Source of the DNA: Dehalococcoidia bacterium
GTDB taxonomy: Bacteria; Chloroflexota; Dehalococcoidia; Tepidiformales; Tepidiformaceae
Direction: 5' to 3'
DNA length: 48,574 nucleotides
Assembly: GCA_007118095.1 (NCBI GenBank)
Contig: SKSF01000016.1
Location: forward strand, 1 to 48,574
In this document: one piece after another, positions 34,036-37,948 of the stretch
Numbering within the stretch: position 1 is the stretch's first letter
Layout: each line of letters starts with the position of its first letter
The notes under the pieces: generated by a model
Seen by the model: the letters and a program-made list of their open reading frames with translations, nothing else
Databases searched by the model: none
Told to the model about the DNA's origin: nothing
Program-made: the position numbers and the translations under genes

Positions 34036-34998
34036 GTGGCGGAGACGGACCGAACCTACCCATCCGACCCCGCCGCACTCGCCCGTGAACTCTTCGCGCG
34101 GTGGGCCGGTGCCCACTATGCGCGAAGCTTCGCACAAGACACCGGTGAGCTCATCGATGGCGTCACGAGAGGCGCCTTCACGGTGGGCCGCCGGTGGCAG
34201 CTCGCCTACGCTGTCATTGATACCATCAGCCCCGCCGCCGAGATGCGCTACGAAGCCGCGCGGGCCGCGCTCGAGCAGCGCCTCGACCAGTCCGGCCACA
34301 GCGTCGCCGTCTGGGTCCCGCGCGAAGCGCCGATCCCTGCCGAAGAGCCCGCGCTCAGCGAGTTCACCATCGCTGTCGAACAGGCACAGCCCATCGAAGA
34401 CGGCCGCCTCGAAGTGCGGCGCCCGGTAACCCTCCACCTCCGCCGCACCTCCACCTCCGGCTCCGTCGTCACCGCGCTCGGGGGCCTGCAACCTCACTGG
34501 GCCCAGTTCACGAACAAAGTCCCCGGCAGTTTCCAGCTCAACTCCAGGGACCTCTACCGGCTGCCCAATTCCGAGGACGACCGCCTCGAGCTCGCAAACC
34601 GGATTGTCCAGGCCGCCGCACAGCCCGATGTCGATGAAGGCGTCCAACTCACCGCCGAGGACGTCTGGACCGCAAACGACCTCGGCGAAGGCCGCTCCTA
34701 CGTCATCGGCAGCGCCGCACACGATGACGACGAATCCAGCGCCGCCGTGCGCCGCAACACACGCCGCATGCTCAAAGCCGCCGAACCCGTCGTGCGCGCT
34801 GATGCCGATGCCCGCGCGCTCATCGTCATTGGTGCCTCAACCTACGCCGATGAAGAGAAACTTTCCTGGGTTCTGCGTGGTATGGACCCGCGCCTCTACT
34901 CTGGCTTCGATATCATCACCGTCATCACCGATGGCCTCGTCAAAGTGGTGCTCGAACCCCCGCGACAAACCCTCCCCTGGGACGCACCCCTGGGCTAG
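34036..34998 (+). CDS. Conserved-looking protein of unknown function
   Basis: Soluble protein of 320 aa that I do not recognise. It starts with a Pro/Ala-rich helix (PSDPAALARELFARWAGAHY), has no signal peptide or membrane helix, and the middle is a mixture of short strands (RLEVRRPVTLHLRRTSTSGS). Strong hydrophobic strands close the end: ARALIVIGAS and FDIITVITDGLVKVVLEPP. No motif of catalysis is evident. GTG start nine bases after bL25, so it shares the ribosomal-protein transcript; the gene after it is also on the same strand, 20 bases on. Confidence 0.7.
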   Translation: MAETDRTYPSDPAALARELFARWAGAHYARSFAQDTGELIDGVTRGAFTVGRRWQLAYAVIDTISPAAEMRYEAARAALEQRLDQSGHSVAVWVPREAPIPAEEPALSEFTIAVEQAQPIEDGRLEVRRPVTLHLRRTSTSGSVVTALGGLQPHWAQFTNKVPGSFQLNSRDLYRLPNSEDDRLELANRIVQAAAQPDVDEGVQLTAEDVWTANDLGEGRSYVIGSAAHDDDESSAAVRRNTRRMLKAAEPVVRADADARALIVIGASTYADEEKLSWVLRGMDPRLYSGFDIITVITDGLVKVVLEPPRQTLPWDAPLG

Positions 34999-35932: not shown

Positions 35933-36685
35933 TCAGCTAGCTTCGCGCAGCTCATCGCCCCGGTACTTCGCGTATTCCGAATCATACGCGGCACGCTGTT
36001 CCTCAAGTTGCGCAAGTGCCGCGCCAAGGTAATGCGCCGGTCGCCGCATTTCCGGCTCCCAGCGTGCCCATCCGGGCCACGCGCGCACCCGGATGCCGGT
36101 CCCGTCCGCGTTCTCCGCAAACGGTTCCGCGCTCAACCTGCTCCGTACTCGCTCGGCGAACTGCTCCGCGCCCCGCTCGGTCGCCTCGGCCAGGAACACC
36201 GCAAACCGCGTCATGTCCAGCCGGCAGACGATGTCGGTCGCCCGCGCTTCCGTATTCAGGACGTTCGCAATGTGCGTGGCCGGGGAAGGAGGCTCCGCCT
36301 GCTCGTCGGATGGGCGAAAATTCACAATCCGCGTATCTACCACCAGGAGCGCCCCGCCCGTCCCGTGCCGCGCGTGACGTGCTATTTCACGCCGCAGGAG
36401 CTCGGCAAAGGCGCCGGCGCCCGCCAGCCGCGTTTCCGGATCCCGTTCCAGCGCGTCCAGGTCCGGTTCGTTGGTTGCGGCAGATTCCCTGGCTCGCTGG
36501 CGCCGCATCTCCAGGATGCGCGCGACGGCATACACGCCCCAGACGAGCGCCACCAATCCGAGCCCCGCGATCGCATTGAGGGGGACGAAGATCGCCACTA
36601 TCGCCACGGTCGCGACCGCCGCCAGTACCAGGATCGTCAGCCTGCTGAACCGTTGATCGTCTTCGTTACGCAATCGAAGGGCCAT
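35933..36685 (-). CDS. Membrane-bound degenerate GGDEF protein with intact I-site
   Basis: Protein of 250 aa: two hydrophobic helices (about residues 15-33 and 38-58), a short linker, and a GGDEF-fold domain (DPETRLAGAGAFAELLRREI onward). The signature GG(D/E)EF is replaced by DMTRF (157-161), so diguanylate cyclase activity is not expected. Five residues upstream, however, RATD (148-151) preserves the RxxD inhibitory-site motif that binds c-di-GMP. The likely role is a c-di-GMP receptor at the membrane (PelD-like idea; inference). ATG at 36685 overlaps the end of the upstream GGDEF gene by 20 bases. Confidence 0.7.
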   Translation of the reverse strand: MALRLRNEDDQRFSRLTILVLAAVATVAIVAIFVPLNAIAGLGLVALVWGVYAVARILEMRRQRARESAATNEPDLDALERDPETRLAGAGAFAELLRREIARHARHGTGGALLVVDTRIVNFRPSDEQAEPPSPATHIANVLNTEARATDIVCRLDMTRFAVFLAEATERGAEQFAERVRSRLSAEPFAENADGTGIRVRAWPGWARWEPEMRRPAHYLGAALAQLEEQRAAYDSEYAKYRGDELREAS

Positions 36686-37634
36686 TACTACTCGAACTCC
36701 CGTGGCTCGAAGCGAACGCCGGCGCCCGGCGCCTCTGCTCCGTAAGTTGTCGGCGTGCTTGTTCGTAGAGCTCCCGGCTTGAATATCCAAGGCCGCTTGC
36801 CGCGCCAAAGGTCAGCGTGACGGGCACTTCTCCTGGCCACTCCTGCTCGTTCGCGTGCTCCAGCTCCTGCGCAATCCGGCGCGCGACCCGGCGGCACGTG
36901 TTGATGTCCGCGCCCCGCAACACAACCCCGAAGGTGTCCCCGGCGAGCCGCGCGGCCACATCCTCAGACCGCAGAACACGAGTTATCGCTATCGCGGCCC
37001 GCTGAAGAAGCTGGTCGCCCGCGGCCCGCCCGTAGTTCTGGTTGACCGCGTCGGTCCCCACCACATTCATCAAGATGAGCCCTGTGCGCTCCTCCGCGGA
37101 CTCGGCACAGGCCGCATCCAGCGCGAGGTCGAAACTGCTGCGGTTATGCAGCCCGGTAAGCATGTCGGTCGTTGCCTCGCGCGCCAGCCAGCGCGTCATC
37201 GTCTCCCGCCGACGCATCGCCATCGCCATGGCAAAGGCCTCGCGCACCGTGTTGCCCAGGCCTCCCGAATCGTAGAGGCTCCCGTGGGTCACCACGTACG
37301 TCGATGTCAGGTCAGCGCTGGTGCAGTCCGCCTCCCCGCATCCAGGGCCCACGATCACGACAGCTGCTGTGCGCGACTCCGCGACCGCATCCTGCAGGTC
37401 CGGGCCACTTTCCGTCGAGCCACACCAGCACCTGTGGTCCACCACCAGCACATCGAAGTGGTGCTCGAAGAGGTCCTCGATCGCGCCCCCCGGGTCGCGC
37501 GCGCCATGGACATGGAACCGCTGCCAGTCCTTGAGTCCCCGGTATGCCTCCCGCACCGCCGCCATGTCCTCCGCCACGACGAGCACGCGCGCCGTGTGCA
37601 GCAGCGTGGCATCCGGGGAGACCTGCATCGGCAT
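36666..37634 (-). CDS. Receiver-like plus degenerate GGDEF protein with intact I-site
   Basis: Protein of 322 aa. Residues ~15-140 resemble a response-regulator receiver (acceptor-like Asp66 in DVLVVDHRC; the conserved Lys is not apparent), with an unusual run of cysteines (CWCGST, GCGEADC). The C-terminal GGDEF domain begins DMLTGLHNRSSFD. The active motif reads AGDTF (231-235) instead of GGDEF, but the I-site RSED (222-225) is present. Likely a c-di-GMP-binding regulator rather than a cyclase. ATG at 37634; its Shine-Dalgarno lies in a hairpin. It is co-transcribed with the membrane-bound GGDEF protein. Confidence 0.75.
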   Translation of the reverse strand: MPMQVSPDATLLHTARVLVVAEDMAAVREAYRGLKDWQRFHVHGARDPGGAIEDLFEHHFDVLVVDHRCWCGSTESGPDLQDAVAESRTAAVVIVGPGCGEADCTSADLTSTYVVTHGSLYDSGGLGNTVREAFAMAMAMRRRETMTRWLAREATTDMLTGLHNRSSFDLALDAACAESAEERTGLILMNVVGTDAVNQNYGRAAGDQLLQRAAIAITRVLRSEDVAARLAGDTFGVVLRGADINTCRRVARRIAQELEHANEQEWPGEVPVTLTFGAASGLGYSSRELYEQARRQLTEQRRRAPAFASSHGSSSSNGPSIA

Positions 37635-37640
37635 AACAAT

Positions 37641-37658
37641 CCCACCTCTCAAGGTGGG
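37641..37658 (-). promoter_or_regulatory. Hairpin covering the Shine-Dalgarno of the GGDEF gene
   Basis: On the mRNA (minus strand) CCCACC and GGTGGG pair around TTGAGA. The 3' arm includes the purine-rich ribosome-binding segment of the ATG at 37634, so the stem could keep the site closed. Six base pairs only. Confidence 0.4.
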
Positions 37659-37726: not shown

Positions 37727-37948
37727 TTATTCGAAGAGCGGCCCGCCCGGGTCCAGCACGGTCCCGTCGGTCTTCACCACTGCAGGCCGTTCTTCGCAGT
37801 ACCCATCGTTTTCACACTTGTCGAAGATGAACGCGTCCCGGGCCTTGTCGAAGTGAATATGCCAGCTTCCAAGTGCCAGGCTGTCCGTCCCCTTCTCCAG
37901 CTGCTCTTGCAGGAGGGCGATAAGCGCCGCGATCTGTTCTCGTCCCAT
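37727..37948 (-). CDS. Small protein of unknown function
   Basis: Protein of 73 aa with an amphipathic N-terminal helix (REQIAALIALLQEQLEKG), then a strand-like WHIHFDKARDAFIFDKC, two cysteines (DKCENDGYC) and an acidic end. No family recognised. ATG with a strong GAGGAG upstream and coding-like codon use support it as real. It lies on the same strand as, and 92 bases ahead of, the degenerate GGDEF genes. Confidence 0.6.
   Translation of the reverse strand: MGREQIAALIALLQEQLEKGTDSLALGSWHIHFDKARDAFIFDKCENDGYCEERPAVVKTDGTVLDPGGPLFE

Follow-up and report, generated by a model that had tools for sequence, protein, structure and literature searches.

The window, a 48,574-nucleotide stretch of contig SKSF01000016.1 (assembly GCA_007118095.1, positions 1 to 48,574), comes from a bacterium of the family Tepidiformaceae (Dehalococcoidia, Chloroflexota) whose genome spans 3.2 Mb in 227 contigs and is 98% complete. 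It carries on its minus strand two overlapping genes, here called A and B, which encode GGDEF-domain proteins with an altered active-site motif and a preserved inhibitory site (I-site), the site at which such domains bind cyclic di-GMP (c-di-GMP).

36666..37634, minus strand: gene A, encoding a pseudo-receiver domain, a signalling helix and a GGDEF domain (open reading frame; Pfam GGDEF E=3e-25; AlphaFold mean predicted local distance difference test score (pLDDT) 81.8)
35933..36685, minus strand: gene B, encoding two predicted N-terminal membrane helices and then a degenerate GGDEF domain, 250 aa (open reading frame; Pfam GGDEF E=4e-10)
36666..36685, minus strand: 20-bp overlap between the end of A and the start of B (sequence)

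The product of A has 322 aa when counted from the ATG and 328 aa from a TTG at 37652, from which its residues are numbered below. Both GGDEF matches exceed the Pfam gathering score, and the I-site motif RxxD stands at its canonical spacing in both proteins (RSED-5-AGDTF in A, RATD-5-DMTRF in B). The 20-bp overlap suggests translational coupling of the two genes. A preliminary description of the locus had placed both reading frames and these motifs correctly, and its picture of one membrane-bound and one receiver-like protein also holds, B having two hydrophobic helices and A a weak pseudo-receiver.

In the Tepidiformaceae there are 24 occurrences of full-length A, the window and 23 further ones; among the 119 genomes searched, none outside the family was found to have it. 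B occurs only directly downstream of A, at 14 of these places (the window and 13 others). Eighteen of the 24 A loci share their neighbours, the A–B pair converging on a gene run that encodes ribosomal protein L25, a 320-aa protein and a 3-hydroxyisobutyrate-dehydrogenase-like protein; the remaining A loci lack B. Tepidiformaceae genomes devoid of GGDEF proteins have neither A nor B, and no genome of the family that lacks an intact GGDEF protein carries either gene.

The features of B are as follows.

36512..36643, minus strand: hydrophobic segment of B, two helices, about residues 15-58 (Kyte-Doolittle peak 2.96 over 19 residues)
36233..36244, minus strand: I-site RATD of B, residues 148-151 (R148 and D151 invariant in 14/14)
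36203..36217, minus strand: DMTRF at the former GGDEF position of B, residues 157-161 (GG[DE]EF in no orthologue; Phe alone kept)
36149..36151, minus strand: Arg179 of B, equivalent to PleD R390 (14/14 orthologues)

The structural model of B (mean pLDDT 89.9) places the N-terminal helices at residues 7-33 and 38-71, and VIA-align superposes it on the c-di-GMP-bound GGDEF domain 3ign with a Z score of 19.8 and a root mean square deviation of 2.3 over 155 residues. The N terminus is hydrophobic in nine of the 14 B orthologues and not in the other five. All 14 lack both the GGDEF motif and the substrate-binding D327/N335/D344 loop (PleD numbering), and the signature of active cyclases is absent from B of the window, which has DMTRF in its place. 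Catalysis was lost in B before the Tepidiformaceae diversified.

Gene A has a different history, which is apparent from the following features.

36960..36971, minus strand: I-site RSED of A, PleD R359..D362 (24/24 orthologues have both R and D)
36930..36944, minus strand: degenerate active-site motif AGDTF of A (alignment; most orthologues have GGDDF, the sister species GADEF)
36876..36878, minus strand: Arg259 of A, equivalent to PleD R390, third I-site residue (24/24 orthologues)
37065..37067, minus strand: Asn196 of A in place of the metal-binding Asp, PleD D327 (21/24 have D; N is confined to the window and congener G001)
36669..36683, minus strand: C-terminal tail GPSIA of A, GPSVA in most orthologues (G324, P325 and A328 invariant)

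RSED occupies residues 228-231 of A and AGDTF residues 237-241 (231-235 from the ATG). The N-terminal domain matches Response_reg below the cut-off (E=0.037) and just 10 of 24 orthologues have the phosphoacceptor Asp, so that it is best described as a pseudo-receiver. Most A orthologues keep GGDDF together with the metal- and guanine-binding residues D327, N335 and D344; the degenerate ones are those of the window and of its congener, both with Asn for D327 (AGDTF in the window, GADEF in the congener), and two other single cases. Active cyclases carry [G/A/S]G[D/E]E[F/Y] and an Asp as metal ligand, neither of which is present in A of the window (AGDTF, Asn196), and this protein is very probably catalytically dead. 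Catalysis was thus lost in A recently, in the window's genus. Since all 14 B orthologues are degenerate while most A orthologues keep GGDDF, the two losses differ in age. The preliminary description was right that the catalytic signature is destroyed in both proteins and that the losses were independent, though the one in B is ancient and the one in A recent.

It is improbable that A of the window has retained diguanylate cyclase activity despite its odd motif, with B acting as a partner for product feedback or localisation. Unusual motifs can be functional, as an AGDEF enzyme, VCA0965 (PMC3974145), and a GGDDF enzyme, GSU1937, are active, PA3258, also GGDDF, being inactive (PMC8835794). By analogy most A orthologues, with GGDDF, D327, N335 and D344 intact, could be active; those outside the window's genus may be weak cyclases, and for them such a reading is plausible. 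A of the window, however, is altered both at the fourth motif residue (T) and at the metal ligand D327 (N), the congener with GADEF carries the same N, and mutation to AGDAF in VCA0965 (PMC3974145) or to GADDF in GSU1937 (PMC8835794) abolishes activity.

Every A protein (24/24) and every B protein (14/14) has the complete I-site triad (R359, D362 and R390), so that the outcome that would have refuted the preliminary description, a loss of RxxD among orthologues, did not occur. The motif is also present in 108 of 125 (86%) unrelated intact GGDEF domains sampled from the loci, a sample biased towards relatives, and its published frequency in GGDEF domains is 44-57% (PMC3974145). As GGDEF domains carry RxxD by default, its mere presence is close to expectation, and its retention was discarded as evidence on its own. 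More telling are the per-site rates calculated on the tree: in B, R359, D362 and R390 rank 5, 11 and 9 among the slowest of 177 sites, as against 37, 32 and 60 of 159 in 30 intact cyclases, in which the GGDEF residues are more conserved.

The same pattern extends to other degenerate proteins of the family. The GGDEF matches of the window's own genome and of 26 other GGDEF-bearing Tepidiformaceae genomes were listed and the low-scoring ones above the Pfam cut-off were classified, seven EAL-linked domains being left out because they did not align to the model. Besides A, this gives six degenerate clades (B, B2, C, D, E and F). In clades B, B2, C, D and E (74 distinct sequences), R390 is conserved in 100%, R359 in 98.6% and D362 in 98.6%; in conservation these three rank within the top four of 144 columns, and the GGDE positions are conserved at 26-59%. 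Clade F (GEGDF...QGPIF) differs: in its 24 proteins (L008 of the window's own genome, L247, L250, L251, L253, L262, L265, L268, L270-L272, L274, L288, L293-L302 and L305), R359 is gone throughout, R390 is gone except in the basal member and D362 is kept. The state of R359 and that of R390 agree in 97 of 99 sequences. A pooled alignment of B, B2 and C, in which exactly these three columns were invariant, omitted the L008-like proteins and has been superseded.

Clade F shows that the GGDEF fold does not need R359 and R390; its members are predicted not to bind c-di-GMP and form a natural control. The near-joint loss of two arginines dispensable for the fold is, judged from the alignment, the signature of a ligand site, and the binding of c-di-GMP by Bacillus cereus PelD requires every one of the three counterparts of these triad residues (PMC7112168). 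Alternatively, the proteins could be structural pseudoenzymes, that is, scaffolds that do not bind c-di-GMP and keep RxxD and R390 for fold or dimer packing. RxxD is indeed the family default, and the persistence of D362 in the arginine-less clade F argues that this residue, at least, is probably structural. We nevertheless consider a purely structural role unlikely, as clade F tolerates the loss of both arginines, which disappear almost together, and as the arginines are more conserved in all other degenerate clades than in working enzymes. Selection for I-site binding, which the preliminary description had proposed for both proteins, is well supported for B, because it has lost the rest of its catalytic machinery and because the fold can do without the arginines, as a sister clade shows. 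The case for A is weaker, because most of its orthologues are near-intact and RxxD could serve them as a feedback site. B, and A in the window's genus, are thus probably I-site c-di-GMP receptors.

Comparison with characterized systems places the pair, as the best supported assignment from sequence, among the degenerate-GGDEF I-site c-di-GMP receptors such as PelD and PopA, like which it would work. PelD, the receptor of the Pel polysaccharide system, is a membrane-anchored degenerate GGDEF protein that binds c-di-GMP through RxxD and a third arginine, and A and B keep the same triad. PelD, however, has a GAF domain and belongs to a pel operon, whereas B has neither and follows a pseudo-receiver GGDEF gene: no GAF domain is matched by Pfam in B, in the model of which the second helix is joined to the GGDEF domain by a short linker only, and a Pfam scan of 40 open reading frames of the window detected no genes of a pel or other exopolysaccharide operon. 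No PelD is among the VIA-align and Foldseek matches listed for B, which has no bearing on membership. B is not a PelD, and what it would share with PelD and PopA is the mode of action only, so that the PelD-type label of the preliminary description is apt for mechanism and misplaced for family. That description also noted correctly the lack of polysaccharide genes alongside, but its suggestion that the output may therefore be new does not follow, since the neighbours do not reveal the output. Caulobacter PopA, described as one or more receiver domains followed by a dead GGDEF domain with intact RxxD, may resemble A of the window's genus; it differs in that A has a single weak pseudo-receiver and that most A orthologues have a near-intact GGDDF. 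WspR, DgcR and PleD are the best Foldseek matches of A and resemble it in overall fold, domain order and I-site triad, but the receiver phosphoacceptor is not conserved in A, and the metal ligand and motif are changed in the window's genus. The best Foldseek match of B is SiaD of Pseudomonas aeruginosa, an active cyclase with a GGDEF motif, unlike B, which lacks the catalytic residues.

From what the sequences, their conservation, the order of the genes, the reliance of B on A and the predicted fold show, we infer ligand binding, A–B contact and membrane recruitment. B would be a non-catalytic, usually membrane-anchored GGDEF domain whose I-site (R148, D151 and R179) binds c-di-GMP. A would be a soluble pseudo-receiver–GGDEF protein, ancestrally probably a (weak) cyclase and non-catalytic in the window's genus, with the same I-site kept. 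Lacking an output domain, B must act by protein contact, and as it also occurs only with A, the simplest model has A and B in contact at the membrane through a c-di-GMP bridge. The ligand, supplied elsewhere in the cell by three intact GGDEF proteins, would bridge RxxD of one GGDEF domain to R390 of another in a PleD-type cross-link, and at high c-di-GMP A would be assembled on B at the membrane. Overall, a two-gene c-di-GMP sensing unit of the Tepidiformaceae, bridged at the membrane, is the best explanation of A and B, with a probability of roughly two in three. Several points weigh against it. RxxD is common anyway (108/125), and its conservation in A may reflect feedback inhibition, the relatives being near-intact. 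Five of 14 B orthologues have no membrane helices and A is also found without an adjacent B, so that neither the membrane step nor the A–B contact step is universal. Nor do the B lineages count as fully independent cases. Finally, c-di-GMP binding is read from sequence and predicted fold, and the A–B interaction is deduced.

The ligand of the I-site could be another nucleotide, such as (p)ppGpp or a different cyclic dinucleotide. PleD entries of the PDB that contain c-di-GMP plus ppGpp or pppGpp are among the Foldseek matches, which shows that ligands of this type can come into contact with GGDEF domains, but retention of the PleD/PelD triad and the absence of A and B wherever intact GGDEF genes are absent make this improbable.

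The genome that contains the window encodes three intact GGDEF proteins (GAF-like–GGEEF, the GAF-like label being a reading from sequence; receiver–GGDEF–HD-GYP; and receiver–GGEEF), five degenerate ones and two HD-GYP domains. No EAL, PilZ or MshEN domain is detectable in this 98% complete assembly; PilZ and EAL are present in the congener G001. The missing domains, together with the restriction of motif loss in A to the window's genus, two other single cases aside, would be expected if the c-di-GMP network were being lost and A and B were its relics. Such decay is nonetheless highly unlikely, given that both frames are intact, that the triad is conserved and that the genome retains its three intact GGDEF proteins and its two HD-GYP domains. 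For genus g12 and genomes G008 and G015, GGDEF, PilZ, EAL and HD-GYP were not found in the genomes checked, lineages in which c-di-GMP signalling appears to have been lost.

Roughly one GGDEF domain in four is degenerate (PMC3974145). Which of these still bind c-di-GMP is usually guesswork. The Tepidiformaceae offer a clean comparison within one family, several dead GGDEF clades with the full triad against a sister clade without both arginines, which makes the conversion of a dead enzyme into a receptor directly testable on sister proteins. The results also point to uncharacterised candidate c-di-GMP receptors in the Chloroflexota, on which little was found in the literature searched. More tentatively, and with the odds against it, the lineage may read c-di-GMP largely through a radiation of at least five degenerate GGDEF I-site receptor clades, with A–B as a c-di-GMP-bridged hetero-complex. 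If so, degenerate GGDEF proteins would be the main c-di-GMP receptors in the window's genome, in which PilZ, EAL and MshEN are not detectable.

The genes around A and B were considered as functional partners. The major facilitator superfamily (MFS) gene upstream and the L25 and dehydrogenase genes downstream were discarded, as they reflect conserved gene order only. The 320-aa protein (34036-34998, plus strand), which adjoins ribosomal L25 in 18/24 loci, has no Pfam match. A 73-aa open reading frame directly upstream of A (37727-37948, minus strand), likewise without a Pfam match, was rejected as a third partner because it occurs in GGDEF-free Tepidiformaceae genomes and extends to further families of the class; it is present in all Tepidiformaceae genomes searched, usually as a single copy.

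The C terminus of A belongs to a wider pattern. Intact Tepidiformaceae GGDEF proteins in the sampled loci end in -AA or -VA in 14 of 25 cases, compared with 5 of 269 conserved neighbouring genes, counts in which sequences within a clade are not independent; outside the family, 5 of 94 GGDEF proteins do so. The enrichment was recorded for the window (36669-36683), L001, L002, L003, L005, L008 and the family loci. GPSVA or a close variant ends A in 24/24 cases, and -LAA is common in clade D. The tail of A is kept in genomes without B and is therefore not an artefact of the overlap. The resemblance of these tails to ssrA-type tails or degrons hints at regulated proteolysis.

Genes for clade D proteins (about 252 aa, TRSSDFLAHLGG) recur at a distance of ~1.3 kb from a gene for an intact GGDEF protein of 330-450 aa, as at 60789 and 62415 of G007:C36, 186105 and 187911 of G014:C3, and 1226306 and 1228132 of G018:C1. 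This locus is a second conserved neighbourhood of a cyclase and a dead GGDEF protein.
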